Shown here: one piece after another, positions 5,201 to 46,598 of the stretch
Position numbering within the stretch: position 1 is the first letter of the stretch
Layout of the letters: every line of letters starts with the position of its first letter
NCBI GenBank assembly: GCA_017506865.1
Contig: JAFCMP010000067.1
Coordinates: 124,001-188,000, forward strand
Direction: 5' to 3'
DNA from: Tribonema minus
Taxonomy: Eukaryota; Sar; Xanthophyceae; Tribonematales; Tribonemataceae
DNA: 64,000 nt
Position numbers and translations under genes: made by a program
Notes under the pieces: model-generated
Seen by the model: only the letters and a program-made list of their open reading frames with translations
What the model was told of the DNA's origin: nothing
The model's database searches: none

Positions 5201-6403
5201 GGCTGCAGGGCGGGGCGCTGCCCCCGGGGTACCGGTACGACCCAGGTGGGTGTGGAACTCTCTTCAGCAGCCAACAACATCAAACATTCCATCCAGTATA
5301 TTCGAGCCATGCATACACAGATGAGGTGGTGATCCGCACGATACCGTGGTCTCCCGCGACAAGCGACGGGGCCTGCGCCACGCGCGTATCGCACGCAGCA
5401 GCCAAGTTGCTGTTGAAGCTGGCCTTCGCCGGGGTACCGGTACGACCCAGGTGGGTGACGCTCGTCGCTGTGTGCTGCGCCTGGTGTCCTTCGCAGGTTG
5501 TTTCGCGAACAGTATCACGCCACCGCAAAGATGAAACACAGACTCACATCTTTTCGCAAACAAAAAAACAACACCTCATAACCCAGGCCGCCCAGGCGCT
5601 GACTGGTAGTCTATCCCCGTGACGTTCGCCGGGCCTTGCCGTAATGCGGTGTGCCGCCGAAGGGGCGAGAGCGCGGCGCACGGCGGAGCGGGGCTGCTGA
5701 CAAGGGCGCTGGTGCCGCCACCGCTGCTGCGAGGGCAAAGTGCTTCCGGGGGCGCAGCGCGCGCTCCTCTTGTCGTGCGGGTGACGGCGGCATGCGTGTC
5801 GCGTGCGGACACGCGCGATGCAGTCCGAGCGCTGCCAGCGCCGCCGTCGCACCCTCCTCTCCGTGGCGCGTCCTCGCACCACCGTTGCCGCAGGCGAGCG
5901 CGCCTGCACAACGGAACAGCGGCGCCAACTGCAACCCCCGCATGCGTGCGTACACGATTCTGAAACAGCATCCGTGACTGAACCCCCGCACTTCCAGTGG
6001 GTGCAGGCCCAGCGCGGCACACCCTCCCCTCCATACCCGCAGAGCTGGTGGTCCTGGCCCCGGAAGGCACGCGAGAGTACCACGAGCAGCGCGGCGGCCT
6101 GCCGACTGCGCCCGCCGCATGCTCGCACACACAGTTTTGAGACAGCGTCTGTGGCTGAACCCCCCCCCCCCCCCCCCCCCCCTTCCCCATTTCAAACACA
6201 GAACTGGGGGTCCTGGCCCCGGAGGGCACGCGCGAGTACCACGAGCAGCGCGGCGGCCTGCCCGCGGACGCCACCAAGACGGTCGTGCCGGGCGAGTACG
6301 AGGAGGTACACATCCCAGCGCGCAAGCGCAGCAGCGCTCAGCTCGACACGTCGCGCCTCGTCCCCGTCGCCGCGCTCGAGCCGTGGGCGCAGACCGCCTT
6401 CCA
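2236..6403 (+). CDS. ASCC3: ASCC3-like part 1: N-terminal region, exons 1-5
   Basis: Exons: 2236-2475, 2686-3497, 4515-4578, 5077-5245, 6202-6403 (residues 1 to about 495). Exon 1 is helical and Gln-rich with [11 protein letters not shown] resembling the LTWKKIIKFLN segment of animal ASCC3; its GC donor (AAG|GCAAGA) is chosen because it alone gives an in-phase join before the stop at 2539. Exon 2 carries a Pro/Ala-rich insert and [19 protein letters not shown], matching ELLGPEGLELIEKLL of the family. Exon 3 ([20 protein letters not shown]) matches the QVTIQSEQEKQL block. Exon 5 carries [11 protein letters not shown] and [11 protein letters not shown], the conserved lead-in to the first helicase domain. 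Exon 1 boundaries are the least certain in the gene. Confidence 0.88.
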
Positions 6404-9400
6404 GTGAGTGCGCGAGCGCGCAAACGCATACCTGGCTTTATGTACAAGTAAACATATGTGTGTATGTTTCGATTGCGGCGGCGACGCCGCGTGCGCACTC
6501 CTCCCTGCACGGCGCCAGCGGCGCAGTCGCGCAGCCATTTCGCAAAGCTTGCTCAGTCGCAGCGTCACCACTGATGCGTGTCCCCTACCCACACACACAG
6601 CACTGCACGACGAATGGACTGACATTTGGCCCTGTGCCCCATCGTCGCCGCGCGCGTGCGCGTGCAGGGGCACCAAGCGTCTCAACTCGATGCAGTCGCA
6701 GGTGTTCGAAGTCGCCTACAACAGCGCTCAGAACATGCTGGTGTGCGCGCCAACGGGCGCGGGCAAGACCAACGTGGCCATGCTCGCGCTGCTGCAGCTG
6801 GTGAGTGCTCATACTCCCTACACCTTCATGCCAAAACATTGTACTTGAGGGGGGGTATCGAGTGGTGACGCTGGCGTCGTGGCGTGCTGTTGTGCGGAAG
6901 CATCCGACTCACACAAGTCGGCACTCTACCGATCACGTCCTTGTCGTTTTCCAGACGTGCACGGAGGCGGCTGCCGCTGCAACGCGCGGTCCTCAGGGTT
7001 AGGGCCAGGGTTGAGCAAGATGACCGCTCTGCCTACGACCGCATGCAAGAGGGCCACTGCACGATGCGTTTACTGATGCTGCTGCGGTCGGACAATGCGC
7101 AGCAGCGTCGCCTTGTGCGGCATGTGACGTGTGCGTACTGCTCGCACACGTCGCAGCTCCTCAGAAAGACAGCGGCGCACGGCGCGTCACGAGCACGCTG
7201 CTGGCGCATGTTGCGGATGCGATGCCCTGCCGCCGAGATGTCGGTACATGACAGCCGCTCTTGTCCATGCTGACCTAGGGACAGAATTAGGGTCAGGCGC
7301 TGGCGCCAGCTATGCACCACGCAGTGCAGTCACCGCACAGCACAAACATCCGCATCGTGTCGTGATAGGTACCGTCAGATGATGATGTGGCATGTATTGT
7401 CATCAGCTTATGGTCTGGAGCGACGGGTGCCGCACTTTGCCCGCGCACTTGGCGTTGGTTGCTGGCCGGCATGCAGTGCAGCGCCCTCGCAGCGAATCTG
7501 CAGCAACGCAAAGTCTGCGGATTCATTGCCGACTGCTGACATGACACACCAGCTCGCTCGCTTAATGTCGCCTGTGCTGGGTGCTGCGCTGCATGATTTT
7601 TGCCCCCGAGTGCTTGACAGTGTTGCGAGTGCTCAACATCACCTACAACTTGTGGTGCCGGCGGCGGTTGTAGCCGTCTCTGGGAACTTGGCGCTCTTTC
7701 CTGCCACTTTTTTGCATGCCAGCCACCGGCAATCTGGTGTGTTTCACGACATAGTAGAGTCTGGTATAACATTGGCTTCTGAGTGCGCACAGCAGCCACG
7801 CTTGGCTGTGCTACTTAACTGTACTTAACTGACAGCATCGCTAGTTCAACTTGTACCTTGCGGAGCGCTGCACTGATATGAGACACACGTGCATGAGGTG
7901 CGATGACGCTGAATCGCCTCCGCACACACATGTCAACTGACGGCTGTGCACTCGTTTTCGCCCCCATTGGCGGTTTCGCAGGTGAAACGGCACATGCACA
8001 ATGGGCGCGTGGACCGACATGGCCTCAAGGCCGTATACGTGGCCCCCATGAAGGTACGTCAATTTACATGATGTATCCCCCCCCTCCTTCGTCGGCTGCC
8101 TGTGGCATGCACACGCACTCCGCCCTTCAGCCGTAGCTTGATGCTGGTTTTACTTTAGCCATTTTGTACCGGTGAATCGCACTGTTGATCCTGTGGTTGC
8201 CTTGGGGCAGCGACATGAGGAGCGCTTGTCACTTCGCACTGCACGCATTGGTTTGCTGCGTGTGCCGCACTGTGCGCACGATCACGACCGTGGCGCGTGT
8301 CGGTCGCACTCTCGTGCCGCCGCCACCAGCGTGCGGACCTGCGCTAGCTGCAGCATTGGGGTTGGGATCGGGGTTAGGCGCCAGGGGTTGTCCGCGTACC
8401 GAAGTCTGCGCTGCTGCCGGTGCTTGCCGCTGCGTCCCAGCGTGCTGCGTCGATGGTGACGCGCGCTGCGGACTGCAACCTGTCGCTGGCGCGTTCAGCG
8501 GCGTTGTTCACGTCCAGAGCGTTTATTCTGCAGTGCCAAGCGCAGGGCATCAATACGTATATGTATATATATATGAATGATCTCCAGTACATCTTTGCCT
8601 CTACGGAATCCATGCAACCAGATCAGTCACGCGTTCGCTGCTCTTAGCTGCTCCCACTCGGACGCTGGCTGAGGGCCGGCGGCCCTAGCGTTAATGTCAG
8701 GCCAGCAGCGGCGGCCTTGGGGCCTCGCAGCAAAATGTAACAAGGGCAACGCTCGCAATTGCCTCATTGTCTTCTGCTGGTGATAAGGTGGTTTGTGAAT
8801 ACGCTCTGCCTTTCCTTGTGTGCTATCATCCGCTGCTGGTGAGGTGCTGAACGCTTGCCTTTGCCGCGTGTGCTGGTTGTTCCCGCGCAGGCGCTCGCGC
8901 AGGAGGTCGTTGCCAAGTTCAGCCAGCGCCTCAAGCCGCTGGGCCTCGTCGTCAAGGAGTACACGGGCGACATGCAGCTCACCAGGGCGGAGGTATGTAA
9001 GTAGGTTTCGCGCGTACATACAACATCTCGCGTACATGTTGTAGTATGTTATGCCGCAAAAGCATACTCAGACCAGTGTTGAGGCACCGCACCTCACCAG
9101 GGCAGAAGTTTGTGCACATGAATGATGCTTACCGGATTACACAGACGAGCGATGAGGCACGCCGCAGCGCTCTGCTGCGCGTGAATGCGCTGCGCCGCGC
9201 TCGGCGGTGCGTGGCACGCCCACGTCCTCTGAGCTGTGTAGAGCGCTCCATTCTGTCGCTTCTCCAATGCAGACGCCGCTAGTGGTCTGGGTGGAGTGTG
9301 GTGTTGCTGTGACCTCATGCGGCGCCGTCAGGGGTGCGCTGTCGACTGCTGGGGGTGAACTTCAACAACTGCTGCCGTAGGTGACGCACGTCCGCGCGTG

Positions 9401-12400
9401 CCAGCATAAGCGCACGGCGCCTCCGTCACTCACTTCTGAGCGCTGAGCGCGCAAAAAAAAGCTGTTGTAACCGCCGCAGCGTCGTACCAGCGGGTTTCAT
9501 TGCAGGCGGGAGAGTTCTCAAGCAGGTGCACCACGCCAACATCATGTCACCTAGAGCTCTACGATCTTTTGATTCGTTTTCATCATGGCCACACGCCCGA
9601 AATGTGGTTCGCATAGGCATGAGTTCCGTAAGCGACTGCCCCATGTCGCCGCTCTCATGCCCAGAAGTGGGACGCACAGGCATGAGTGCAAGGAGCGACT
9701 GACTGACTGACTGACCCGTGTCTCTGCTCTGATGCCCTGCAGGTGGAGGACGCCAACGTGGTGGTCACCACGCCCGAGAAGTGGGACGTCGTGACGCGCA
9801 AGGGCGGCGACGGCGCGCTTGTGTCGTCCGTCGGGCTGCTGCTCATCGACGAGGTGCGTCACGCTTGAAGAAGCGCTTGAAGTATCGAGGCGTGGCATCT
9901 ACGAGTGGAGTCCGCCGGTAGCGCGCTGCGCGTGCTCCGATGCACCGGTTAGATGCTGCGGTCAGGTGCTGCTGCTTGAAGCCTGTGCGCTGCCGCAAAT
10001 TCTGCTGCCCCGAGCACTGCCGCTTGCGCTGCTGCTGCATGGCCCGAACCCGAGCCCTGCCACGCCATGACCGCCGCCTCTCGCGCGCCGGGCGCGCCCG
10101 CTGACGGACAACAGGGGCGCCGCGGCTCACAACAGCCTCATATGATGCGCGCGTGCTGGTACGACATACGATGCTTGAGCGCTGCTGCTCATTACATGTA
10201 TACGGTGTCTTCGCGCTACTGCGCTTTATTATGCCTGAGCACTCATCTTCATGCTCTTTGCTTGAGTGCTGCTGCTTGATGTTTAGTAGTATACAATATC
10301 CAAGCGCTGCTGCATGAACTGGTGTTTGAGCACGACCACTTGCCCCCCCCGCCCCCCCCCCAGGTGCACCTGCTCGCGGACGAGCGCGGCGCCGTCATCG
10401 AAAGCGTCGTCGCGCGCACGCGCCGCATGGTGGAGTCCTCGCAGCGCTTTGTGCGCATCGTCGGACTCTCGGCGACGCTCCCCAACTACAAGGACGTCGC
10501 CGCGTTCCTGCAGGTGCGCGCGAGCCTACCTACCCTTGAGTTTGAACTAGGGTTAGGTGTAGGGCTCCTAACTCTATCCCTAACCCTGTCGGCAACGCTC
10601 CCCAACTACAAGGACGTCGCCGCGTTCCTGCAGGTGCGCGCGTGAATGCATGCGTGCATGCCTACCCTTGCGTTAGGGTCAGGCTTGGGGCCAAACCCTA
10701 ACTTGTGCTAGGGTTAGGGTTAGGCCTCATCGTGACCCATGGGGGTAGAGTGAGAGGTTAGGCCTAATCTTAGGGTTCGAGTTCGGGTTAGAGGTAGTGT
10801 GGTAGCATCGCGTGTCCCCTATGCTTGGGGCTTGCTGAGCAGTTAAAAGTGGGAGCGTCACCTGCCTTGCATGCACTTGCACAATTTAAACACGCTTGCA
10901 CGGTATCTGGTGGTAGGGCGTCTCCTTGCTGGCCAGTGGGCCTTCTGGGGGGCCGAGAGGCCCCGCGCCTCAACATTAGGGGTTAAGCCTAAACCTAAAC
11001 CTAACCCTGTCGGTGACGCGGCTACGAGGGTGTCGCCACCTTCCTGCGGGATTCGTATGCACACCTGCCCTGCGGCCACGGCGACGAGAGGGCTGCCTTC
11101 AGCACCGGCGTCGAATGGCAATGAGCTGGCTTCTGTAAGCGTTGATATCGTTGCCGGATCTCCGACAGCAGCGCTGCGAGCGCCGTCGCTCGCGCGCGCA
11201 CGGCGCTCTTCATTGTGCTCGCGCTGCCGCCGTCGCCGCCTGCTGAGCGCTCGTGCGCAGAGCGACTTGCCGCCAACCCTTGCTGAAGTGAATTGTGCTA
11301 ATTTGTCGGCGCCAGCCGCCCCCTCTGCCTGACCCTCACCTAACCTTGGCATACACGTACTCCAATTGTGCAGACGTGGCATTGCGTCATCTCAGCTGCT
11401 CTCATGACGACATTGTACTTTCACTGCGCTTTGTTCGTCAACAGACGCTCGTAAGGTGCCTGCATCACCAGCATCAGGTGCTTGTTAGATGCTTGAATTA
11501 CCAGCACGGTTTGGCGTGATGCGCGCGCAGGTGCGCGTCGGCGACGGCGGCGGCCTGTTGACCTCTGTAGTGCTTCAATGAAAGGACCTACTTCTCTTGT
11601 TTCCAAATCACCTGTTATATCCTTTTGATGCCTGAACTACCGGCGCGACGCGGCGCGACAGCACGCACAGGTGCGCGTCGGCGACGGCGGCGGCCTGTTG
11701 GCCTCTGTAGTCCTTCAACGAAAGCACCCACATCTCCAATTTCTTGATCATCTCTTCTATCCATTTGACGCCTGAATTACCGGCGCGACGTGGCGTGATG
11801 CGCGCGCACGCAGGTGCGCGTCAGCGATGGCGGCCTGTTGATCTCTGTAGCGCGTCAATGAAAGGACCTACTTTCCCTATATCTATATCATCTTTTATAT
11901 CCTTTTGACGCCTGAACTACTGGCGTGATATGCATGTGCGCGCGCAGGTGCGCGTCGACGACGGCGGCGGCCTCTTCTACTTTGGCCCCGAGCACCGCCC
12001 CGTGCCGCTCGACCAGACGTTCATCGGCGTCGTGGAGAAGCAGCGCATGCGCCAGATCGCCAAGCTCAACGCGATCGCGTTCGAGCGCGCCGTGCAGTCG
12101 GTGCGCGTCGGGCACCAGGTCATGGTCTTCGTGCACGCGCGCAAGGACACGGTGCGCACCGCGCAGGCGCTGCTGGAGCTCGCGGCGCGCGAGGGGAACC
12201 CCGATGTGAGCGCTGTCACGCGCGCGTTGCTGCGTAATTGCTGTTAGTTGAGTTGTTTATCATCGCTCAGGGCGCGAGAAAGCCCAGGTGGTTTGCTCAT
12301 CTTCGCAAAGGGCGCAAAGAGGGCCCAGGTGGTTTGATGTCGAGCTCGCTGTGTCAAGCGCGCCACCACAATTCACATGTGCCTTGTGACAACGTGCCTC

Positions 12401-13539
12401 TCATCTCGATGCGCATTGATGATGAGTGATTGAGTGGGTGCCATTACGGCACATGCAGTCTGCTCCATGAACAACCGACTGCCCTTGCGCCGCCGCCCGT
12501 TCAACCGCGCTTGCCCGCACTGCGCTCCCGTGACCGCAGGAGTTCGCCATGGAGGGAGTTCGCCATGGAGGGCGCAGAACCCTGCGCCAACCCCAATGCT
12601 GAGCACTGATTCAGCGCATGCTATTCAACACTTGACGGCACATGCAGACTGCACTCGAGAGCTCGCCGATGAACCAATTCCCGTCACGCCGCTGCCCGGC
12701 TGCTCCCGCGTACATCTACTCCCGTGACCGCAGGAGTTCGCCATGGAGGGCGCGGACGCGCGCGCGAAGCACGAGGCCGCCGTGCTCAAGAGCCGCAACC
12801 GCGAGCTGCGCCAGCTCTTCGCGTCCGGCGTCGGCTGCCACCACGCCGGCATGCTGCGCTCGGACAGGTAGGCGGAGCGGCCGGCGGCGGCAGCTGAGCC
12901 GCGCTGCGCGTGCCGCGCGCTCGTTGCGAAGCGCGCCCTCCATGTGGTTCTGGCACTGGAGGGAGGGTTGCTGCATTGAAAGTTTCAATTCTTCTGCTGC
13001 GCCTGCATGCAGCGCGGCGAGCCAACCCCTTTCAGGCCGCATTGCATGTAGTTCTGAATAACGAGCGTCGCGCGCCGTCAAAAGCGCTGGGGCCGGACGG
13101 GCGACCCGTGCAGCGCGGCTCCGCTGCCCCATGTACACCGTCGATGGCGTTATGTGTGCACGCGCGCTCCGGTGGCGAGCCCGCTGACTACTCTGCTTTC
13201 TCTTCTTTGTACTACTTTGAACAGATAGAAACAGCAGGGGCAGCTCCCCCCCCCCCCCCCCCCCCCCCCAGCACGTGGTGAAACCCCGGGCGCAGATCGT
13301 GCAGGTCGCTGTAGTCGTGCAGAGGGCTGTCGTGCTGCGGAGCTCACCCTTGCCTTCGCGGCGTTCGCCGCGCCTCCTTCCGCGCCGCCGGGCGCTCATG
13401 CAGCGTGCTGTCTTGATCATGGTTCGCGGACAACGCTCAACGACCTCTGTGCGCAGTGCCTGCTGCTGCCGCCGCTGGCTCCACGCGCGCGCCGCACAGT
13501 GCGCTCACGGAGCGCGCCTTTGAATACGGCGCCCTACGC

Positions 13540-13576
<37 letters not shown>

Positions 13577-16500
13577 GCGCCGCCGGACGCTTACGCAGCG
13601 TGCTCACCTTAGAGGAAGGGAAAAAAACACAGTTTGCGCACAACGCTCAACGAAATCTGTGCGCTGCGTCCGCCGCCACCGCTGCCTCCGCGCAGGGTGC
13701 TCACAAAGCGCGCCTCTGAGGACGGCGGCCTGCGCCTGCTGCTGACGCAGCGTGCTCGCCTGTAAGAGAAAACATGATTTTTTGCGCGCAACGCTCAATA
13801 ACTTCTGTGGGCGGTGCCCGCTGCCGCCGCTGCCTCCGTTGCAGGGGGCTCACGGAGCGCGCCTTTGAGGACGGCGGCCTGCGCCTGCTGGTGTGCACGG
13901 CGACGCTCGCGTGGGGTGTCAACCTGCCCGCGCACACCGTCATCATCAAGGGCACCGAGGTGAGCGCCTTAGGGTTAGGGTGAGGGTTTAGAGTTGGGAT
14001 TAGGTTTACGGTTAGGTTTAGGGTTAGGGTTAGGGTGCTAGGCGCGCGGCATCGGCGCAGCGGAGGGGCTGCTCGAGCGCGAAGGGCTCAAGTGCAAGAG
14101 TGATGGTGTCGCTGGGTTATGTTCTATTCAGGATGGTACAGAAACATACAGAAGGCCTACACCAATAACCCAAGGCGCTATCAGAACGCAGCATGTAGTG
14201 CCGCCGAGCAGTGCGTCGCTGCACACCTATGTACACCAACACCCCAAGGCGGTAGGCCTATCAGAACACAGCGTGTAATGGCGTCGAGCAACGCGGTGCT
14301 GCAGAAGGGCTGGTCTCGCTTCACCTCGCCCAGCAGCGCTCAATCACCGCGCAGCGGTAACCCTGATGTTACATAGCCCAAAACGGCGCGACAGCACCCC
14401 TGGCACCGATTGGTTTGTACAACTGTGTTTAGGCTTTGTATATGCCTGGAAAGTTGGAGCATCAGAACGGCACTAATGAAAACTTCAGTCGTCAGAGACA
14501 AAACAAAACAAGGAGGCACTCTGACCAGCGACTCGCGCCCGGTTTTCAACCGCTCGTCGCGCAGTGTACAATCACAACAATCACTGCGCAGCACGGCGCA
14601 ACAGCGGCCCTGGCACCTGTCTGAGGCACTCTGAGTGCTGACTCGCGCACAAACTTCTACCGCTCGTCCATCGCGCAGGTGTACAACCCGGAGAAGGGCG
14701 GCGCGGAGGACCTGAGCATCCTCGACGTGCTGCAGATCTTCGGGCGCGCCGGGCGGCCGCAGTACGACACGTCCGGCGAGGCCATCCTCATCACCACGCA
14801 CAAAGTATGGATGGCGGCGGTCATCGACTCACCTGCTGTTGCCGTGACCACAGGCTTTGCGTAACTATGATCAGAAATAAACCTGGGTGAACTTGTTGAC
14901 GAAATGCGGATGTATACGCCTGAAGGTGCCTCAGGGTTAAGTTTAGGTAGCCCTAACCTAACCCTAACCCTAACTTAGCACTCAACGACTGGCGAGGCCA
15001 TCCTCATCACCACGAACAAGGCATGGCAGCAGTCATCAATCTCAGTACCTTCAATGCTGCGGCCTCGAGCTCATGCTCCAATGGCCACGAAAGAACTGCG
15101 TAGAACTTGTAAATGGCAGATGAAGTACCTGGAATACTCAGCGTCGAACGGCAGAACGGGCAGCCGCAGTACGACACGTCCGGCGAGGCCACCCTCATCA
15201 CCACGCGCAAGGCACGGACAGGGCAGCGGTCGTCGATTCACCTCTTTTTACCGCTGTCACGAGTCCTTTGACCAGAAACAACTGGGTGAAGTGTATAAAA
15301 ATGGGGATGACATACCTGAAATGTCAACACATGTCGTCGGCGTCTAATGGCAATGAGTTAAGTGCCGCCACGCAGACTCGGTAGCGTCGTTTGACGCTTG
15401 CTGTTGCCGTGCGACGTCGCTCATTGCTGCCTTACGACGTGCCTGTCTCGAAGATCAGCTCGTGCCAGGCTTTGAGTTGAGCTGCGCGCACAACGCCGCG
15501 TCAGTATAAAAAAACTGCTTCGATGACGTCTTGCGTAACTGCCTGCAACTGTCAATGCCTCCACCGCTGCCTGGCGCTCCTTGCGCGCACGACGCCGATT
15601 TACTTCAACCTTGCAGTAGACATAACATGAGTGAGTGCCTGTGACTGCAATGTGCTGCGCCGCGCAGAGCCGCGACCACCACCTGGCACTGCTCGCGCGC
15701 GCAACGCCGATGCACTCCAACTTCACAACACCATATGCGTAACCAACCGCCTGTAACTGTCATGCGCCGTGCAGAGCCTCGACCGCTACCTGGCGCTGCT
15801 CGCGCGCGCGACGCCGGTCCAACTTCAATAATCATTGCGTAACTGCCTGTAACTGTCATGCGCCGCGCAGAGCTTCGACCGCTACCTGGCGCTGGTGGCG
15901 TGCGCGACGCCGATCGAGTCCAACTTCATCGACTGTCACGCCATTTGAGTCCAATTTCATCAACTGTCACCAACATACTGATCGAGTCCAATTTCATCAA
16001 GACATCGTGCCTAACTGCCTGTCACTATCATATCACTGTCATGTGCAGAGCCTCGACCGCTACCTGGCGCTGCTCGCGCGCGCGACGCCAATTGAGTCCA
16101 ACTTCATCAAGGCGCTGGAGGACCACCTCAACGCGGAGGTGGCGGCGGGCACGGTCACCAACGTCCGGGAGGCGGTCATGTGGCTCAGCTACACGTACCT
16201 GTACGTGCGCATGCAGAAGAACCCGATGGCGTACGGTGCGTGGCAGCGCCGAGTCGAAGTTGGAGTCCCTCGTTCGTGCACCGCCTGCTCGCGCGCGTGC
16301 GTGCGTCACAGCCCTTGCAGCGAGTGGCAGCGCAAGGGGTGGTGCGAGTAGCTCGACGCGGGCGGGGGGGCGGGGGCAGCCCCGTCGTTTGTAGCAAGTT
16401 GAAGGCTTGAGCTTCAGTTCGCTGTTCCAGCGCTCACACGTGTCGCTGCGATTGGCACGTACGCAGGTGTGACAGATGACATGAAGCGCGGCCGTTCCGC

Positions 16501-19500
16501 TCGTGGAGGCAGAGGTTGACAGATCGTGCACGGAGCGCCGCTGTGATCGACCTCTTCTCAAATGAACACACACCGCCTTGCACGATTCCCACCGATCTGT
16601 ACCCCGCCCCCCCCCCCCCCCCCCCGCGTCACCCCCCAGGCATCAAGCTGGCGGACGCGGAGGCGGATCCGCGCGCGGAGCAGCGCCGCAAAAAGCTCAT
16701 CCTCGACGCGGCCGCTGTTCTGGACGACCGCCGCATGATCCGCTACGACGCGCAGAGCGGCAACCTCGCGTCCACGGACCTCGGCCGCGCCGCGAGCCAC
16801 TTCTACATACAGCACGAAAGCGTCTTCCGCTTCAACAAGGGGATGAAGGTGGGGGGCGGGGGGGGGCGGTGGGAGCGTGTGCGTGCACGTGTCTCTGCGC
16901 GCTGAGTGTCGGTCCCGTGTGCGCGGGCGTACGCGGTGTGGTGGCGGGCGTTCTCGGAGGAGGAACGTCACTTGCTGTTGATGTGTTGCTGTTGAAGTGT
17001 CGACCCCCTGTCGTCGGGAGTGTCCATTGAGCTCGCTGCCATGGACATTGGCCGCACCGCCCCCTTCACGCGTGCGCATGGGCAGCGTCAGGGCGGACTG
17101 GCTGTGTTCTGGCCAGGGTGTCAAGGCGGGCGGGGGCGGGCTGCGCTCGCATCTGTCTGCGCGCAGCAGTTGCGTTCGCCCGAGCGCTGCAGCACGCATG
17201 CTGTACTCACATCCATGCACAGTGGTAACTGCACACGCCAGTGGAGCGTCACCAGTTCCGCCGCGGACCTTGGCCGAAACGCGCGAACGCGCTTTGAGCG
17301 GGGCACGAGAGCACGGCCAGGCGCGTGTTGACGCGGGGCATTTGTGGGGTGCGACCCTCTCGGTGTGCGTGCGCGCAGCGCCGATATGCACTTGAAGATA
17401 CGAGCACGGCGTGCTTGCGGCACTTCACAAGTGCACATGCAAGGCGTCCCTGTCTGCAGAAAACAACCTCAAGGCGAGATTGTGGCTTGAGAAGGCTTGG
17501 ATGGGCCCTAATTACCCGCCCCTCCCCCCGCCCGCCCCCCCATATGCCCGCGCCAATGTGCACTCCCCTCCTGATGCGACACCGGCTCACTGCTGCGCCC
17601 CCCCGTTTTCCCTTGCGCCGCCGCGTCCGCGCGCAGCAACAAATGAACGACGCCGCTGTGGTGGCGCTGGTGTGCCTCGCCAGCGAGTTTGACCAGATAC
17701 GCGTGCGCCCCGAGGAGCTGAAGGACCTGGACGATATGAGGGCCAGGTGCGTCACAAAGTCTCTGTCGTACGTGTGGCAGGGCTCAGCGATGTATGCGTG
17801 ACAGCGCTCTGCTGTTGCAAGGACCGCGACGACCTCAGGGCCAGGTGCGTCGCGCTCCCACGCGCACGCGCGTGCTCGATGCATGCGTGACAGCGCTCTG
17901 TTGTTGTAGTGCTCAGCAGGTGACGCGCAGTCGCTCTCTGGCACGCCGCGCGCGGTCAAAGAGGGGGGGGGGTGTCATGGCAGGGGTACTGAGGGCAGCG
18001 AGAGCGTCGCCGTGTGTGCTGCTGCGTTAGGGTTAGGGATAAGGTTCATCTAGCCCTCGCCCTACATCTTCGCTGGGGTTGCGGGACCGTTGGCGATCGG
18101 GAGGGTGCACTGGGGTGATTCTGCTAGGCGCTCTGGTTACCATCTCTGAATGTCAATGCTGGTACCCGCGAGGGGACACGAGTGCTAGCAGGCGCGCAGT
18201 CGTGCGCTGTCTTGCGCAGCAGCGCTGACCAGCGGCGCTGATCACTGACCCGGGCAGCAGCAGTGCCCAGTGGAGCGCGCCCAGCACGGCGATCGGCGCG
18301 CTGGCGGCGCATGCTAGATGGCGGTCTCGACGAGTGCGCGACGAATCGCCGCGCCTGCACTGCTCCTGCAGCATCATCTTGCATGCCTGTGGAGGAGGCT
18401 GGGCTTGTAGCGGGCCCCTGAGTACATGATCGCGCAGGGGGCCGTCGCCGAGATGTTGTTTGCACGTTGTGTCCTGTGAGCGGCGCCAGACTGGGCCAGG
18501 GCAGTCGTCGCCATCTGTGACGGCTCGGTTGCGCCTTGCTGCCGCCGACCATTTCACTCCCCCCCCCCCCCCCGTCTCCCCCCCCACATGTGCACCTCAA
18601 TCCCCCCCTCCCATCATTCAGGACGTCAGGCAGCGTTGGCCATACTCGGCGCCAGCGCAGGCCCCTGTCTCATGTCGCGGCGAGTCCGGCATGAGCACGA
18701 GCGCCACCACACGTTCCGTTGGAGGAGTCAGCGCCGTGTGCGCGTCCCGCACAGTGCGTCGCGGCCAATGATGAAGCCCCCCCCCCCCCCCCGGTCCCTG
18801 CCCCATCGCATTTGCCGCTGCGTGTACACCGCGCGCCCGTCACCGCACCTGAAACTGCCATCGATCCTGGCGGTAGTCCCCCATTCTTGTTCGCGCTGCC
18901 TTTTTTTCGCTTGCCTCGTCGCTGAGAGTCCGACTGTAGAATCCTCGTCACAACGCCCTTCCTCGACGAGTCTAACTGAAGTAGTTGCGAAGTAAGCCTC
19001 TTTTTGTGACCCCCCGTTTCCCCTCATGAAAACCCCTGTTGTGCGCGCAGCTGCCCGCTGGACATCAAGGCGCCGCTGGACGACTCGGCGGGCAAGGTCA
19101 ACGTGCTGCTGCAGAGCCACATCTCCAACCAGCGCTCCGCCAACTTCACGCTCGTCAGGTACGTAACCGCCGCGAGCACCGACGCGCCGGAGTCGTTTGA
19201 TGTTGTCCGACGCATCATCACATGAACTTACAACTTCAAAATTGAGTTGGCGATTGGCTGACGACATGTAGCGGAAGCGCTGGCGTGCCATTGCATCGAC
19301 GCGCAGCTTCAGGCAGCGCTGCTGCTTTCCTGAAGGTGCGGTGTCTGCCGTGAGTCAGCGACGGCCCTGAGATCAGGGTTTGCTCTCCCTTGCAGCGCCA
19401 CGAGACCGGTGCGAGGGGGGCGCTATGGCAGGTGCACGAGGTACGCGCCCGTGCGCAGCAGCTGCGCAGCGCCGCCGCCTCCCCACCGAGACACTGACGC

Positions 19501-22500
19501 CGTGCATCCGCATGTGCCGCGCTGACAGTCACTCATTACCTGCAGCAACTGCCACATGGTGACCCACCCCCCCTGCGGGCCCCCCCTCGCGCTGTGTGTA
19601 GCCCGCCGCCGCCGCAGGCGTCCACGCACGCCGGGGGCGGCCTGTGAGGCGCCCATGTCGCTACGGGAGGGTCCAGCTGTCTGCGGTGCTGAGCGCCGCC
19701 CTGTGACACCCATTCACGTTCGGCGGCGGCATGAGCACACTCAGACCGCCGTCGCACAGGGGGGTGCTCCGCCTCGCATACGCGCTGAGCACCAGCCGTT
19801 GAAGTTGCTCAGCATGGAGTGCATCAGCAGCACTCCCCCCCCCCCCCCCTCCCCCCGCCCCCGCCCCGCCCCCATGCAAACCGGCTGCACACGGCGCGCG
19901 ACGCCGGAACAGCATCACAACCGCTCACGGACACCTCGCGCGCTACGCTGCCCCCCGCCCCTCCGCCCCTCGCTCCGCGCGCGCAGCGACGGCAACTACA
20001 TTGCGCAGAACGCGGGGCGCGTGTCGCGCGCGCTCTTCGAGATCGCGCTGCGCAAGGGCTGGTCGTCGCTCGCGCGCCGCCTGCTCGAGCTGAGCAAGGC
20101 CATCGACCGGCGCACGTGGTGGACAATGACGCCGCTGCGCCAGTTCGGCGGTGAGTTCGCGGAGCGCTGCTGCGGGGGGTAGGTATGCATCGCCTTTGCA
20201 AGCAGAGGCAGCCCTGTTGCTGTACAAGGGCGCTGTCTTGCAGTGCGCCACGCTCAGCATGCTGTGTCCCATGCCCCGCAGGCGATGTGCGAATTTCTTA
20301 CACAAATCACAAGTATCTCAGTGCTCAGCCACGTACCCCTTGCCGGTGCGCCGTTTGCAGGCGACCTCCCGTTCTCCGTCCTGGAGGCGCTGGACGGCAC
20401 GCGCCTGGACGCGCTGCTGGAGATGGGCGCCAATGAGGTCGGCGACCTGTGCCGCGTGCACAGGCTGGGCGAGAAGGCAAGGAACATTCAAAATTGGAAG
20501 TACACGAAAAGGCCTACCGAACACGCGAGACCTTTCCATACTGAGCACCCATGCCTCGAATGAGATGGGCGCCAATGAGGTCAGCGACCTGTGCCGCGTG
20601 CACAGGCTGGGCGAGAAGGCAAGGACGCCCCCCACCCCCCCCTCATTGTGGTGTGCAGTGCTCAGCATCAGCAGCTGCGGCGAGTGTGGCGTGCAGCGCT
20701 CGGCAGCAGCCTACATGTATTGCGCAGAGCGCGCGGCGGCAGTGTGAATGCATTGTGCAGGGCCTTTCAAGTGCAGCTCTTGGTGTGTTGCGTGCAGCGG
20801 TCGGCAGCAGCGTGTTGAACTTGAGGTCGCGCGGTGACGCAGGCGGTGTTGTGTGTCAGCGCAGTGCAGAGCAGCTGCACAGGTGAGTCGGACCACTGCA
20901 CTCTAGGCTGGCGGAACGTGGCACACAAACGTGGTGGATGCAGAAGGAGTCTGCAGCTTCGCTCACCGCGTGCCGGCCAGGTCAATCCCTAACCCTAACC
21001 TCAAGGCGTTAATCCCAACTCTGACCCTAATCCTACCCCTAACCCATAGCGGCAGCACTCAGATGGCAGGAGTCTGCGGTCCGCTGTCTTTCAGCTCTAC
21101 CGGAGCGCCGCTCGACGCCGCGGCAAGTGCAGGCGCGCTGCTGCTGCTGCTGCCCCGTCACGCGGCCCGCCGGCCCTGCGCAGCGCGTCCCGCGCTCACG
21201 TGCTCGTTTCAATGTAATTTTTCCAACGTTTCGTTGTCATCGCCGTTTCGCGACCCCCGCGCGCGCGCACCCCCGCCGCGCTCGCCGCAACGCCCCGCGC
21301 CGGCACCTGGAAATTTGCACTATCCGCGCATGAGCCGCGCCTCACGCGCACCGCCCGCGCGCTCTTCCGCCGCCGCCGCCGCCGCCCGCCGCTGCTGCTG
21401 CGCCGCGCGCGCGCCCTCTCCGCAGGTCCTGCACCTGGCGCAGCGCCTGCCGCGCGTGTCCGTGCGCGCGGCGGTGCAGCCGGTGACGCGCGGCGTGCTG
21501 CGCGTCACGCTCACCGTCGCGGCGGCGTTCGAGTGGCACGACCGCATGCACGGGACGTCCGAGCCGTGGTGGATCTGGGTTGAAGATGCGGACTGCGAGG
21601 TGCGTTTTTTTATTTAATTTAATTCTGTAGCGCTCCCGCCGAGAGTCCGCGTCAAGTCGCCTTGATTCTTGACTTCTCTTTCGATCTGTTTTGACGAGGC
21701 GCTTGCGTGTGCTGCATGGAAGCGCCATTGAGTGGTAGATGCAGAATATGTGAGTGATGGATGCAATCTGTCGCGTCCATGGTGGATTTGGGGTGGAGAT
21801 GCAGTTGTGAGGTGCGTGTTCAGAGCGCTGCCGCTTCCGCTGAGAGCCTGCGCGAGAGCGTCTTGATTGTCGACTCCTCTCTCGCTCTGTGCGACAGGGC
21901 GCTTGCGTGCACTGCATGGAAGAGCCATGAGTGGTAGGACTGATGCGTGTGCATTCAGGACATCACAGGGCGCTTGCGTGCGCTGCGTAGGAGAGCCGCA
22001 AGACTTGGTACAACGTCGCACGCAAAACCAGGGGCTTAAGGAGTATACAGTAGCCCATGCTTTGCAACATGTGTCGCCATATTTCTGTGCATCGGGACAC
22101 CTGCTCCAGCGCGCGCCGCGCCGAACGAGCTACCAGGCATTCGTCGGCAGCTTCTCTCATGCCCAAAAATTCACAGCGTATCACATGCACAAACATGACA
22201 TCAGTGCGCTCTGACCCGCGATTCGCTCCGCTGCGTCTGTGCGCATCGTGCCGAGCGCTGTTGCACCGCGCAGCGCATCTACCACAGCGAGCACTTTGTG
22301 CTGCCCAAGCGCGGGCGCCACAGCGAGCACGTGCTGGCCTTCACCATACCCATCTTCGAGCCCAAGCCGCCGCAGTACTGGGTGAGGGCCATCAGCGACA
22401 GGTGAGCGATGCTTCCTGGTACGACAAAAAAGTCATAGTGAGGACTAGCGTTAAGAATAGGGCTGCATGTAGTTTGAGGGTTAAGGTGAGCTGCCGCAGT

Positions 22501-25500
22501 ACAGGGTGATGGCCATCAGCGACAGGTGAGCAGTGCTGCCTGCGCACGACACTGTGGGTCGGGGCTAGGATTAGGCTTAGGGTGAGGGCTGATGTAGCTT
22601 GACAGGTTAAGGTGAGCTGCCGCAGTGCAGGGTGAGGGCCATTAGCGACAGGTGAGCGATGCTTCCTGGTACGACAAAAAAAGTAATAGTGAGGGCTAGG
22701 GTTAAGAATAGGGCACACGACATTGCGGGTTAGGGCCCGGGTTAGGGTTAGGGTGAGGGCTGGTGTAGCTTTAGGGGTTAAGGTGAGCTGCCGCAGTGCA
22801 GGGTGAGGGCCATCAGCGACAGGTGAGCGGTGCTGCCTGGTACACAGTGTCAAAAGGGGACCAGGTGTAGGATGTGTACTTTTTGCACGTGCCAAATCAC
22901 ACCTGAAGCTGACAGGCAGCCAATGAGTGTTTTCACTCAAAAGCACAGCTGTAGTAGAGGCGATAGCTGGCAGACACAGTCTTGCGTGAAGGCCATCAGC
23001 GACAGGTGAGCGGTGCTACCTTGCACACGACATTGCGGTATTGAGGGTTAGGGCTAGGGTCAGGGTGAGTGTCCTCAGCTGCAGGTGAGCAATGCTGCCT
23101 ACAGCGCAACGATGTTGTAATTAGGGTTGAGCTCAGAGTTAGGGTCAGGTCAGGGTTACGGTTACCATTGGCGCCTGATGAGCGCGATGTCGCCTGGTAT
23201 GCAACAGTGCAGTTATGACGGTCAGGCTTAGGGTTGAAGTGCGAGTACGCAGCGACGGATGCGCTATGCTGCCTGTGCACAGCAGCATACATACTTAATG
23301 TAGCTCCTGGCACTAGTGTCAGGATTAGGGCTACAGTTACTTCAACTGCCCCTGCGCTCTCAAAATCTCATGCGCACTGATGTCGGATGCCGCTGAGCAG
23401 CTGAGCTGGCCCGATACAGCACTTGCGCCAGCCCGCACTTTGTTCCTGCTCACTGGGTCGCCCCTACTAAGCGCGTCCGTCCGTCGCGTTGCTGGGCGCC
23501 CCCGCAGCAGCGCTCAACCGCAAAACCTCCCAGCTATGGTGGCACACAGCCGAACCGTCCTCTCTCTGTGCACATCCATTCGTTGCATCGCTGCCAGAGA
23601 CGTAGCAGCGTTCAACCTCAAAGCTGCCCTGCCGTCCATCATGCGGCCGGAGGGGCGTGCCCCATCTAGCAGCGCTCAATCGCATAAAACCTTTTGTTGT
23701 CAGCTCAGAAGATTGCAACGCGCAGCCACGCTGCACTTGCTGCGCCCACCTCTGCAGCGCTGAACCTCACAACCGCCGCGCCCCCCCCCCCCCCCCCCCC
23801 ACGCCCCCTCCCGCGCCGCAGGTGGCTCGGCTGTGAGACCGTCGTGCCGATCTCGTTCAAGCACCTGCTGCTGCCGGAGCAGCACCCGTCGCACACGTCG
23901 CTGCTCGACCTCGCGCCGCTGCCGGTGACGGCGCTGCAGGACCCCGCCTTTGCGGCCGTCTTCCGCGGCTACACGCACTTCAACCCGATACAGGTGGGCG
24001 TGATGCGCGAGGGATGAGCGACCCGCGCGCACCCGAGGTTGCCTGCGACGCTGCATCGGCGCCTGAGCCTGTGAAAAGCTGTTCTCTTGCGTCATGTTCT
24101 TGAATGATTGTGTCGTCCGCAGCGCAGGAATGCAGTGCTACGGTGATGACTCTCTGTGCCATACCGCGTTGCCGTAGCTCCCCGTCGTCCGCGGCTGCAC
24201 GCACTTCAACCCAATACAGGCGGGCGCCCGCGCATGAGCGCCCCCCGCGCACCCGAGGTTGCCCCCGGCGCTGCATCTGAGCATCTGCAAGCTGTTCTCT
24301 TGCGTCCTATTCGTAGATGGTTGTGTGGTCCGCAGCGCATGGAATGCAGTGCAATGGTGATGACTCTCTGTGCCGCAACGCATTGCCCCCCCCCCCCCTC
24401 CCCCCCCCACACAGTCCTCACCCCTTCCCCGCTGTATACCTGCCCGCCCCCCGCTCGTTGCCCCCCCTCTTGCAGACGCAGCTGTTTCACGTGCTGTACC
24501 ACACGGACGCCAGCGTCCTGCTAGGGGCGCCGACGGGCAGCGGCAAGACGGCGGTCGCGGAGATCGCCGTGCTGCGCATGCTGCGCCAGTCCAGGCAGTG
24601 AGTGCCGAAGATTGGATGTCGTACTGTCTTTCTTGGGCATCAGAAGTGACCTCAGGCTCTGAGCAGGGACGCACTAGTTGCTCACTGTCTGTGCTTCTTT
24701 GTGCTGGGATTGTGCGTCATGCACAAGGAAGGTTCGTGAGGCCAGTTCTGTCGCTGCGGCAGTCTAGGCAGTGAGTGCGCGAGCGACGCTTGCAAGATCC
24801 ATACCTCTCAGCCTGTGCTGTTGACTGCAAGTTGGTGGAGCGTCCGCACGTTGCGACGCTTGCAAGATCCGTACCTCTCCGCCTGTGCCGTTGACTGCAA
24901 GTTGGTGGAGCATCCGCACATTGCGGCCACTGTGTCGTTGACTGCAAGTTGGGGGAGCATGCGCACATTGCGACCATACACGGCGGTAGCGGAGATTGCC
25001 GTGCTGCGCATGCTGCGGCAGTCCAGGCAGCGAGTGCCGAAGATTGGACGTCGTCGTGTCGTTCTTGAGCATCAGAAGCGACCTCAGACTCTGAGCACTG
25101 ACGTACTGCATGCTTGCTGTTTGCGCTTATTTATTTGGGTCGCACATGACGCATGTCGTACCTTCTCGCCGGCCGTATGTTCTCGCATGCGCACGCTGGG
25201 CATCCTGCAATGGGGCACAGCGCGCAGCGAGTACTGCAAGACTCGCGCCTCTCAAGCAGCACCGCCATTGTCTGCAAGCTGGTGGAGCAGCTACATGTGT
25301 GCGCAGGGCTGCGACACCGTGCACGATTAAGCTTTGAGCGGCCATTGAGAATTAGGGTTATGGTTAGGTCTTGCCCGCTTGCAGATCGTAGCAACATGGT
25401 ACTGTGCCCCAAGCCAGCAGCCCAGCCAGTAGGGCGGTTTGGGGCCAAGTTGTTCTAGCAGCAAGCAGTGCCCGACATCGCTGCGGCGTTTGCTCGCTGA

Positions 25501-33100: not shown

Positions 33101-36100
33101 GGAACATACTGCACCGCCCTCGCTCAAGCACATAACGCCCCCCCCCCCCCCCCCCCAGAAAATGCTCATCTTCACCTGTGACTCTCCCCTGCCCTCCCCC
33201 CCCGCGTAGGGCACCGAGTATCATGTGCACAACACGACAGTATTTGCTCGTGCCCAGCAGCACACATTGCTCACTCCCAAGCACAGAACGCAGGCCCCAC
33301 ACCCCGGGCTAATGCTCATCTTTACCTGTGACACTTCCCCCCCCCCCCCCTCCCCCCCCTGGCGCAGGGCACCGAGTACTTCGACGGGCGCCTCGGGCGC
33401 TACGTGGACTTCCCCGTGACGGACGTGCTGCAGATGATCGGGCGCGCGGGCCGCCCGCAGTTCGACACGCACGCCGTCGCGGTCATCCTCGTGCACGAGC
33501 CCAAGAAGAACTTCCTCAAGAAGTTCCTGTACGAGCCGTTCCCCGTGGAGTCGCAGCTCGCAGGCGCGCTGCCGAACCACATAAATGCGGAGATCGCCGG
33601 CGGCGCGATCGGCAGCAGGTGCGCGCGTCGCGCTTCTCGCGTTTTTAAGCAGTGCAACAGCGCTCATATGCTTTTGAGGCGACGGCCACGACAGCGGCAC
33701 TGTTGGACTGCATCGGGCACGGTAGCGGCCGCAACGCCTGCGCGCTGAGAGCGCGTCAACGCAGAGGTGCGGGCGGCGCACTAAGCAGCAGGTGCATGCG
33801 CGCGCCTCATGTCACCCCGCATCAGCGCTCGAATGACCCTCAGCTGAGGTACTCGCCATGCGGCTGCGCTGCTGAACCGCATCACGTAGCAACGGCGGCA
33901 GCGGTGCGGGCGAAGCACATCGACGCCGAAAACGCGGGCGCCGCCATCAGCAGGTGCGCAGCAGAATCTCAACGATTCTATCATTTCATGATGTCAAACC
34001 GCGCTGCACTTTCCTGTCCCCCCCCCACCACGCGTGCGCACAGGGAGGACGCGCTCGCCAACATGACATGAACGTACCTGTTCCCCCATGCGCTACAGTG
34101 CAGTATATGTAACGAGTAATTGTTCATACCGTTTCACGACATGAAACGCGCTACGCTTCCCCCTCGCATGCGCAAGGAGGACGCGCTCGCCTACATGACC
34201 TGGACGTTCCGCCGCACTCCTTTACTTCACACTGTAGTACTCCAACGCACATCATATACTTTGAGGTACTCCGAAGTATGCCAATAACCAGCATCATGAT
34301 CCTTTCCTATCACTTCACTACTATGCACATGCTTTGCTCCCGCGTGCTCGCGCAGGGAGGACGCGCTCGCCTACATGACGTGGACATACCTGTTCCGCCG
34401 CCACATTGAAGTTCTCCTAAATAAGACGGATCAACAGCGTCATGATCTTGTATTTCACGATTGTGCACACGCTTTGCTTCCTCGCGCGCGCGCAGGGAGG
34501 ACGCGCTTGCGTACATGACCTGGACGTACCTGTTCCGCCGCATCGTCCAGAACCCCTCGTACTACCAGCTCGAGGACACGACGCCGGAGGGCGTAACCGC
34601 CTACCTGCAGGGTCTCGTGGACGACGCGCTGGCGGCGCTCGACGAGTCGGGCTGCATCGAGGTGCGTCGCAAGTGTGCAGGGTACACCCATGTACTGGTA
34701 CTTTTACTTCATTCAATCATTTCCACTACCTACTTCATGCGCCCAAGCACAGTATATTTGCAAGGCCAGAGGGGGGGTGAGGATGTCAGCGCTCTGCAGC
34801 CCCTCCCCCGAGGGCCCTGATGCTCCGTAGTGGGCGGTGGGCAGAGGTCACGTGCGCGGCGTGCCGCACGTTCGAACCTCGCTCACCGACGCGGAGCCCA
34901 GCGTCGCACCAATCACGCACCAAATACAACAGTGCGCACCGCACCTCAGTCGGGCCGGCGCCTGAAGTTCACGCACACCCCTGCGCAAGCATCCAACCCC
35001 GACCCAACCCTAACCCTAACCCTAACCCTAACCCTAACTTTAGCCCTACAATGCGTGCGTACATACCTACCCCCCCCCTCCCCCGCGCGCAGACGAGCGA
35101 GGACGGCGAGCGCGTCAAGTCCACGCCCCTCGGCCGCATTGCGAGCTACTACTACCTCGACCACGCCACCGTCGGCGAGGCGTGCGACGCGCTGGAGACC
35201 CTCGCGGACGACGGCGGCGACGACGACGACAGTGATAGCGCTGAGCTCTGCCGCATCCTGGCGGACGCGCGCGAGTTCGCCGAGCTGCCCGTGCGGCACA
35301 ACGAGGACGTGCTCAACGCGGAGCTCGCGGCGGAGCTGCCGTGGGCGGTGGACGCGGCGCGCGTCGGCGAGGCCAACACCAAGGCGTACCTGCTGCTGCA
35401 GGCGAGTGCTGCGCAGTGTTGTGTATGCGCGGTGTGCGCCGCGGTCGGGCGTGATGCCTACGTGCCCATGCACACGTGCTTGCGCTCGATGTGGCATGGT
35501 GCATGCATGTGTGCGCGCCCGTTGCTACATGTCAGTGCGTTGACCTCAACGCGATAAAGTAAGCAGCTGGCGCCCCCGGCCGTCCGTCCGGCTTTGCACA
35601 ATATATGTAGTCACAGAAGCGCACCTCTATACCCTACATGTGTGTGCGCACCTACATGCTGCACGCCAGTGCCCCGACGTCAGCGCCAAGAAGTAAGTGG
35701 CGCTTCTGCCACAGCGCAGCACTTCCACAGGGAATTCCGTGAAAGCGGCAAAGACGAGCTGCAGCCTGCAAACGGTCCGTGCGCGGAGGCTTGCGAAGTC
35801 TGCGGCGTAACTCAAGCGCTGCTGCGCAGCAGTGCTCAGCGCCGGTGTGATGCAGCTTTGTGTGGTGGGGCGCGGCGCAGACGGCAGCAGGCAGCGGCGG
35901 CGCTCGCTGCAGGGTAAAACCGCTGCTGTCATGCGGCTGCCCATCATTGCACGCGCGATGCACTCTGTCGCCGTGCGGCTCCGTGGCGAGCGACAGGTGG
36001 TGTCTACAGCATACGCGTCGCCGCAGACGCGCGCGCTCTTCTGCAGGAGCATGCAGTGATGCTGCACGCCCGTGTAGCGGCAGGCACCTGCGCGCTCACG

Positions 36101-41858: not shown

Positions 41859-41924
41859 CAGCGACCGCTAGCACCAAGGCAGCAACGCCTGCTAACAGGC
41901 GCATGCATTTACTTGGGTGGCGGA

Positions 41925-43055: not shown

Positions 43056-43299
43056 CCTCCTGCTGACTTCACTCGCGTATCATGGAGATCAGAGTGCCTG
43101 CGGGAAGAAAACAGCCGACGCTTGGCGGGCAGCACAGAAGAAAACACTTTGTCCAGCCCTGGCACCAGCTGGACTGCATTGAAAGATATCCACAAAAGAC
43201 GGTCTCAGTCAGTGCCGTCGTCAGCGTAGACCGTACAAGCGATTGCGTCAAGCGCAGGAGCATTGCATACGAAGCAAACTCTTGATCGAAAGAACATCA

Positions 43300-45838: not shown

Positions 45839-46133
45839 CTGTGTGGGCGCGCGGCGTTAGGAGGGCAGCGCGCGTCAGAACAGCGCACAGTCAGAACTGC
45901 AGCGCCCGCTGGCTGCATCGTGATGTCAGCAGACGCTGAACATCTATGTGCGTAGCGCTGTATGGGGTGGGGTTGAAGTCAATCCTGATGTGGCCCCTTG
46001 TGGCAATCGGTTGCCAGCTTTTAATGTCATGCACGCGCAAGCACGTACTCTACACGAATCACAGAACATTGAAGTCGACACCAATTTTTTAGGCATTGTA
46101 TGGCTATGAGTGATTGTCGTTGTGCACCTACAC

Positions 46134-46598
46134 ATGCAGTTACAAAATTTCATGTATTGCTGCACCAAGCCAGACGTCAGAACTCCTATTGCAATCTGCA
46201 ACCAGGCGTTTCTTGCAACTCAGGTGTTACAGCAGCTGCAAGCAGCAGCGGTGTGCTTTGAGGCTGCCTCTAGTGAGCGCAGAATATCTAAGCAACTGCA
46301 TGCAAGGAAGGCCGCAGCACAATTTGTTGAAGCTACAGCACATTCCTTCTGCTCTAATGTCTACTGCATGAAGGATGCATGGCAACGAGGGCGCTCAGCA
46401 AGCCATGAGAGCTTGACAGGTGCCTCCACGAAAGAACCGGCTGTCAAGAAACAGCCTGTGAGTTCGAGCACACACACAGCAGGTCATTTGCTGCAACTTC
46501 AGCATAAGTTCCCGTCCGACTTACTCACTATCTGGCAGTCGCACGAGCTCCTCCACGCTCGGGCTGAAGAAAGAGCCAAACGTGCCAAAGTTGCCTGA
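46134..46598 (+). CDS. Hypothetical ORF or exon
   Basis: Open for about 155 codons in a locally AT-richer stretch where chance ORFs are less likely than in the surrounding GC-rich DNA. A possible acceptor (CAACTCAG at about 46215-46222) suggests the real exon may start at VLQQLQAAAVCFEAAS. The peptide is mainly helical and Gln/Ala/Ser-rich, ending HARAEERAKRAKVA. I do not recognise a family. Confidence 0.3.
   Translation: MQLQNFMYCCTKPDVRTPIAICNQAFLATQVLQQLQAAAVCFEAASSERRISKQLHARKAAAQFVEATAHSFCSNVYCMKDAWQRGRSASHESLTGASTKEPAVKKQPVSSSTHTAGHLLQLQHKFPSDLLTIWQSHELLHARAEERAKRAKVA

Follow-up and report, generated by a model that had tools for sequence, protein, structure and literature searches.

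Direct copies of exon edges in the adjoining introns of an ASCC3-like helicase gene and of sampled loci in Tribonema minus

The window analysed here, a stretch of 64,000 nucleotides (nt) at bases 124001-188000 of Tribonema minus contig JAFCMP010000067.1, is part of a 158-Mb assembly in 554 contigs; one assembly and one strain underlie all results. It carries an ASCC3-like helicase gene at 4515-37946 on the plus strand, for which a hand-built model gives 33 exons and 32 introns with a single open frame of 1948 codons. Thirty of the introns are GT-AG and two are GC-AG, with the GC donors at 20477 and 35402. Introns of this gene contain copies of the edge of a flanking exon, in direct orientation and often with the splice site and some of the adjacent intron, and the same is found at loci placed blindly elsewhere in the genome.

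The best protein match of the gene is the deposited Tribonema minus protein P0001 (99% identity over 82% of the query), followed by a protein of the brown alga Scytosiphon promiscuus (66% identity). P0001 begins inside exon 8, and thus has no exons 1-7, and skips the 33-nt exon 24, while its remaining exons are joined as in the hand model. In the second helicase cassette, the first half of the DEVH box is encoded by this exon 24 (27463-27495), which is present in homologues. Of the 32 junctions, 4 to 6 have a gap within 4 residues in any one of the four homologues aligned. The model is without the N-terminal exon or exons lying upstream of 4515. A strong predicted coding exon at 2686-3497, whose translation by eye resembles the N-terminal part of the Scytosiphon homologue, is likely one of them, and the gene therefore probably has the extra introns counted in the initial annotation, which gave 34 introns against the 32 modelled here. 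Its intron numbers equal those of the hand model plus 2, and its first two introns fall outside the test described below.

Each edge (at most 60 exon nt plus 8 intron nt) was compared with its own intron and scored against 300 equal-length draws from other introns. Twenty-two of the 64 edges, in 17 of the 32 introns, beat all 300 mismatched draws, where about 0.2 edges are expected, and the reverse-complement control on the own intron yields a single edge of 64. In a self-search of the window, repeat pairs less than 1 kb apart inside the gene are direct in 54 cases and inverted in 2, with no direct pairs inside the gene at 1-3 kb; many direct pairs have one member straddling a splice junction and the other in the adjoining intron. 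By the edge test, the initial claim of copies in 18 introns stands for 16 of them (hand-model introns 2, 6, 8-12, 15, 18-22, 25, 28 and 29), fails for introns 14 and 26, and had passed over intron 31, which passes. Intron 14 is also the one that holds the "barely recognisable" copy reported at 17040. The perfect copy at 5429-5457 is borne out, as are multiple copies per edge, with up to 3 at exon 13 and periodic arrays at exons 9, 20 and 25. The median intron length is 949 nt with copies and 627 nt without (p = 0.045); since a longer intron leaves more room for a match, this difference is no evidence of growth. Copies in the gene include the following.

5429..5457 (+): exon 2 donor-edge copy, 22 exon and 7 intron nt, 29/29 identical, 205 nt downstream
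6040..6103 (+): exon 3 acceptor-edge copy, 61 exon nt, 94% over the match, 159 nt upstream
5919-5987 versus 6094-6164 (+): exon 3 copy, alignment of the matching intron part
10586..10642 (+): exon 8 donor-edge copy, 48 exon nt, 96%
11485..11834 (+): exon 9 acceptor-edge copies, array with a period of ~140
12525..12578 (+): exon 10 acceptor edge, two short copies
13422..13744 (+): exon 11 acceptor edge, two copies
14985-15026 and 15157-15243 (+): exon 12 donor edge, two copies whose donors read GC
15531..15930 (+): exon 13 acceptor-edge copies, array
17819..17906 (+): exon 15 donor edge, contiguous tandem copy
20562..20625 (+): exon 18 donor-edge copy, 56/57 exon nt, both donors GC, no homology found in the intron flank
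22489..23100 (+): exon 20 donor-edge copies, array with a period of ~125
24182..24387 (+): exon 21 donor edge, contiguous tandem copy, offset 226
24753-24778 and 24980-25132 (+): exon 22 donor edge, two copies
28735..29069 (+): exon 25 donor edge, two tandem copies, up to 92 exon nt
33125..33220 (+): exon 29 acceptor-edge copy, 11 exon nt and the intron end
34031-34210 and 34258-34401, within 34025..34401 (+): exon 30 acceptor-edge copies

For the genome sample, one 10-kb piece (bases 40001-50000) was taken from each of 20 contigs, numbers 5, 15 ... 195 of the 554; the placement was blind. Its exons are predictions of a small home-made hidden Markov model (HMM) trained on the ASCC3-like gene, which recovered 32 of the 33 exons of its own training gene exactly before retraining and 30 after. 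Exons scoring at least 15 and longer than 60 nt were kept (71 in the last round, loci L029-L030 included), giving 118 junctions for BLAST and 111 edges, flanked by 150 nt or more, for a test against 200 mismatched flanks. Among these predicted edges, 39 of 111 match their own flank above all 200 mismatched flanks, compared with 2 of 111 for the reverse complement, and BLAST alone finds an own-edge copy at 32 of the 118 predicted junctions. Repeat pairs less than 1 kb apart are 190 direct and 1 inverted at a score of at least 40 bits (163 and 1 at 44 bits). Six of ten predicted sample peptides match Pfam families (SNF1-like kinase, YchF, CBF/Mak21, actin family, cyclophilin and sulfatase), the YchF match lying below its curated cut-off, and four copies of a single acceptor edge lie in the adjoining intron of the SNF1-like kinase gene. 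Gene and sample combined, copies occur at 61 of the 175 edges tested, approximately a third. The excess of own-edge matches over mismatched pairs, chosen beforehand as the comparison on which the claim should stand or fall, is present in both sets. The copying of exon edges is a genome feature, with a like rate in gene and sample, and its initial description, given for one gene, was too narrow in scope.

Low-GC stretches (50-53%) were found at L010, L013, L016, L019, L020, L025, L026, L028, L029 and L030; they have few exons of the type rich in GC at third codon positions and few local direct repeats, loci of this composition giving 0 to 5 repeat pairs each. Shifts in GC inside single pieces (L018, L023 and L028) make contamination unlikely.

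Altogether 76 junction copies could be measured (22 in the gene, 54 in the sample), 38 at donors and 38 at acceptors. The nearest copy lies at a median distance of 175 nt (middle half 134-226 nt). It is contiguous within 10 nt in 17 of 54 cases, whereas the other 37 have a spacer, and the tandem duplication proposed initially is to be corrected in this respect. Edge, splice site and intron are copied in order, as expected of duplication across splice junctions, in the 54 of 76 copies with more than 10 aligned intron nt; the aligned intron part is at most 10 nt in the remaining 22. Exon parts are 70-100% identical to the original. In 59 copies an unaligned flank of more than 20 nt could be compared, and 32 of these flanks are still homologous to the intron at p <=0.05, which argues that many spacers are decayed intron parts of one duplicated unit.

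The copies reach only a short way into the exon, with a median of 46 nt, more than 75 nt in 5 of 76 and more than half of the exon in 1 of 76 (54%); reach does not follow exon length (rank correlation 0.18, p = 0.12). Repeat coverage is 20-27% in the outer 40 nt of exons, and at more than 120 nt deep in exons it is zero in the ASCC3-like gene and 0-7% in the sample. In the introns of the gene, coverage is approximately flat out to 500 nt and then drops. In sample non-coding sequence, it is 22% within 600 nt of an exon versus 9% beyond at loci of at least 55% GC, and 13% versus 3% at lower-GC loci.

The fate of the copies was read from 70 of them that align in the frame of the real exon, 21 from the gene and 49 from the sample. 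At codon positions 1, 2 and 3, mismatches occur at rates of.070,.067 and.141 in the gene (87 mismatches) and.080,.100 and.144 in the sample (254 mismatches). A freely drifting copy compared with an exon that drifts at third positions only should give a 1:1:2 ratio, and this ratio fits both sets (gene p = 0.98, sample p = 0.06), whereas 1:1:1 is rejected (p = 0.003 and 0.0006, respectively). Therefore, judged from these alignments, the copies look dead, as the initial annotation had supposed, and only the real exon appears constrained. Donor dinucleotides in 35 copies are GT in 27, GC in 7 (one of which copies a GC donor) and AT in 1, and acceptor dinucleotides are AG in 28 of 35, two of the remainder being unaligned.

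Use of the inner site would cause a frameshift or introduce stops in 21 of 22 gene copies, the exception being the exon 8 copy. Since the inner sites break the frame, the cell is predicted to pick the outermost site, and splicing would keep the outermost original sites. The deposited protein agrees with this part of the initial proposal: P0001 covers 25 junctions and joins 23 of them contiguously with the hand model, at the outermost sites; both exceptions flank the skipped 33-nt exon. The outermost site is the first transcribed for donors and the last transcribed for acceptors; plain transcription order thus cannot explain the choice, and we infer that splice sites are paired across exons.

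Our preferred reading, to which we give a probability of about two in three, is recurrent local direct duplication of junction-spanning stretches into adjoining introns, likely linked to replication and tolerated because the outermost original sites are still spliced. Junction-spanning stretches would be copied repeatedly into the adjoining intron, almost without exception in direct orientation and for the most part less than 1 kb away. Each event presumably duplicates some tens to a few hundred nt locally, either in tandem or with a spacer. Misprocessing of replication forks or of Okazaki fragments may be the route in Tribonema minus. A splicing filter could remove exon-rich copies, which would bring in enhancers and compete with the real site, and such a filter would give the short reach; it would leave the excess of junction families described below unexplained. 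Introns would then grow from their ends inward, with deletions balancing the growth. A more specific form of this reading, in which splice junctions are hot spots of direct-repeat duplication, copied into introns every ~100-230 nt, and introns grow by swallowing dead edges, is put forward tentatively, as the odds seem to us somewhat against it.

The most serious competitor, which we nevertheless consider unlikely, is that neutral tandem duplications of 100-250 nt occur uniformly anywhere, that those internal to exons are purged and that those spanning junctions are merely the easiest to see. Indeed, uniform duplication explains the direct orientation, the neutral decay and the empty exon interiors. 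In the 17 contiguous cases, the exon parts are ~90% and the intron parts ~84% identical (hand-averaged), near the neutral expectation, and some repeat families are confined to introns, namely 5 of 22 in the gene and 16 of 49 in the sample. This model was compared with the data by forward simulation of a gene of like layout, in which tandem duplications fell uniformly, sequence drifted neutrally, deletions occurred, codon positions 1 and 2 were frozen and detection was the same; the simulation assumes random sequence, fixed rates and balanced deletion, and unit medians of 60-175 were tried.

Junction families make up 28-45% of the simulated families, in contrast to 17 of 22 observed in the gene and 33 of 49 in the sample, the latter counted in the 11 of 20 loci with at least three kept exons and with any predicted exon of score >5 taken as an exon. 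The combined 50 of 71 (p = 1e-5 against a fixed simulated share of 0.44, not against every simulated setting) mixes an unmasked run on the gene with a masked run on the sample, and the masked gene run gives 16 of 22. A reach of more than 75 nt is simulated in 14-48% of copies and observed in 5 of 76 (p = 6e-11, again against one fixed share, 0.40), a reach of more than half of the exon is simulated in 21-34% and observed once in 76, and contiguous nearest copies are simulated in 53-69% and observed in 17 of 54. Simulated coverage climbs away from exons, whereas observed coverage does not. In addition, the junction share is flat over pairs of all identity classes (116 of 203 overall), while ageing alone should raise it with divergence. 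Of the 39 contiguous pairs, 5 have at least 85% identity, and 2 of these 5 lie at a junction. No unit length tried fits all four measures, and therefore a bias to junctions is needed, in origin or in survival. Compared with the simulated uniform model, splice junctions are favoured, either as places where duplications arise or as places where they persist. The persistent duplication with tolerance proposed in the initial annotation is thus supported as far as duplication goes, and in its uniform form fails on junction share, exon reach and spacing.

Several observations weigh against recurrent, junction-biased duplication as we read it. At the shortest simulated unit (60), a reach of more than 75 nt falls to 14%, near the observed 5 of 76. 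All three contiguous repeats of at least 90% identity, presumably the youngest, touch no exon and sit away from junctions; these few cases favour uniform duplication and speak against targeting. Two near-perfect edges are without flank homology, at exon 2 (29/29, flank p = 0.90) and exon 18 (63/64, p = 0.95), which is unlike a plain tandem unit with even decay. The use of the outermost sites is predicted from the open frame and the deposited P0001, and the homologues have small gaps, mostly of 1-3 residues, within 4 residues of junctions 2, 8, 15, 17 and 22, at each of them in 3-4 of the 4 homologues; of these junctions, 2, 8, 15 and 22 correspond to introns with copies. In the sample, exons are predicted by an HMM trained on one gene, and 4 of the 10 predicted peptides are without a Pfam match. 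Five low-GC loci give no own-flank match at 9 edges, and 20 kb of a locus identified by eye as BRR2-like contain 2 pairs, showing that the process is not uniform across the genome. Finally, candidate FEN1 and EXO1 exons (XPG-family matches, named by eye) are present in the assembly.

The short and bounded exon reach might also suggest that selection maintains the copies as decoy splice sites tuning the splicing of the neighbouring exon, as might the cases (exons 2, 8, 10 and 18) in which edge and splice site are much better conserved than the intron next to them. We consider this very unlikely, because codon positions 1 and 2 diverge as they would in a freely drifting copy and splice dinucleotides are lost about as often as for two ordinary sites (hand count). 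Still less credible is a reading of the copies as parts of genuine alternative or mutually exclusive exons, or as products of a wrong gene model. A usable splice dinucleotide is mostly kept (donors GT or GC in 34 of 35, acceptors AG in 28 of 35), the exon 8 copy could be used in frame and the HMM gene finder called some copies exons. In contrast, the frame breaks in 21 of 22, third-position mismatches are no higher than the real exon alone explains, and P0001 runs contiguously across 23 of 25 junctions. Tandem or mutually exclusive exons, in which a whole coding exon with both sites is duplicated, were likewise rejected on the frame-breaking and on the single copy of 76 that exceeds half of its exon; as no copy extends past 54%, none has both edges. 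An assembly or chimera artefact, conceivable with a single assembly behind all data, has almost nothing to recommend it, as most copies have diverged from the original with a codon-position pattern tied to real exons and are present on many contigs.

Among known systems, introner elements are alike across genes and show how one process can shape many introns of a genome. The copies in Tribonema minus resemble them in this last respect. Introners were rejected as the source because edges score in their own intron or flank above every draw from other introns or loci (22 of 64 and 39 of 111), a comparison of edges rather than of whole introns. Templated insertion during polymerase-theta end joining places local copies in either orientation; it was rejected too, as inverted copies are almost lacking (190 direct versus 1 inverted in the sample). 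Loss of FEN1 as a cause was rejected given the FEN1-like and EXO1-like XPG-family exons named by eye.

Parallels come from published accounts. Tandem duplication of exon segments has long been proposed as a way in which introns are gained, and some cases are reported (PMC2891723, PMC4974935). In the potato RNA-dependent RNA polymerase gene, a junction-crossing tandem duplication gave rise to a new intron whose donor was recruited (Ma et al. 2016, PMC4974935), and, as in Tribonema minus, the duplication spans an intron end and the start of the next exon, with the splice signals inherited. Unlike this single event, the duplications in Tribonema minus pad existing introns, with no new intron seen, and recur at 61 of 175 edges. 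The Rogers model of a duplicated AGGT-bearing exon segment, as represented in a Drosophila survey (PMC2891723), shares the local tandem duplication, the repeated splice motif and the coding sequence preserved by splicing. In that model duplicated exonic sequence becomes intron, whereas the Tribonema unit spans an existing junction: the copies consist of a donor edge with the intron start, or of an intron end with an acceptor edge, of existing introns.

Faults in Okazaki-flap processing are reported (PMC13202174) to yield classic duplications as well as "alternative" ones, whose units are separated by internal sequence. Both forms of such short direct duplications, contiguous and spaced, are present in Tribonema minus. 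The reported cases come from human and yeast cells subject to stress, mutation or inhibition, and are not presented as a genome-wide intron feature. Among the titles and starts of abstracts listed for the open-licence literature on introns, duplications (those from Okazaki fragments included), Tribonema and interstitial telomeric repeats, no genome-wide excess of own exon edges in introns was found. Single junction-crossing tandem duplications are known, whereas a genome with such copies at approximately a third of the exon edges tested appears, within that literature, to be new.

The origin and growth of introns is an old open question, and here part of the source of introns is directly readable, with the conserved exon partner of each junction duplication serving as a clock. 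Near-identical splice sites stand side by side at the 61 edges, which would amount to thousands of sites in the genome if the sample is fair, and such adjacent sites make pairing across the exon testable. If junctions are indeed hot spots, the genome would be a natural assay of spliceosome choice, in which the outermost site would be taken at donors and acceptors alike, as exon definition would demand. The copies may also mislead gene finders.

Other features of the window include telomere-like (TTAGGG)n tracts between 6993 and 35037, found on both strands in introns 4, 8, 11, 12, 15, 18, 20, 22, 23, 26 and 30. Two-unit matches with at most 2 mismatches number 60 in the window, versus 0.79 expected from shuffles, and 58 of the 60 lie inside introns of the ASCC3-like gene and none in its exons. 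As a trigger of the edge copies these tracts were rejected, since copies occur in 7 of 11 introns with tracts versus 10 of 21 others (Fisher p = 0.47). Intron 23 holds an inverted repeat at 26350-27033 with arms of ~163 nt (86%), which is foldback-like or resembles a miniature inverted-repeat transposable element, and in intron 26 a 15-17-nt motif (like GATATAAGAGCGGTC) is repeated at 31106-31529, directly and by eye also inverted, in the manner of a transposon terminus. An Rfam scan of the window at gathering scores gave no match. Downstream of the gene, on the minus strand at 43323-45805, there are predicted exons whose translation by eye resembles a class-V aminotransferase.

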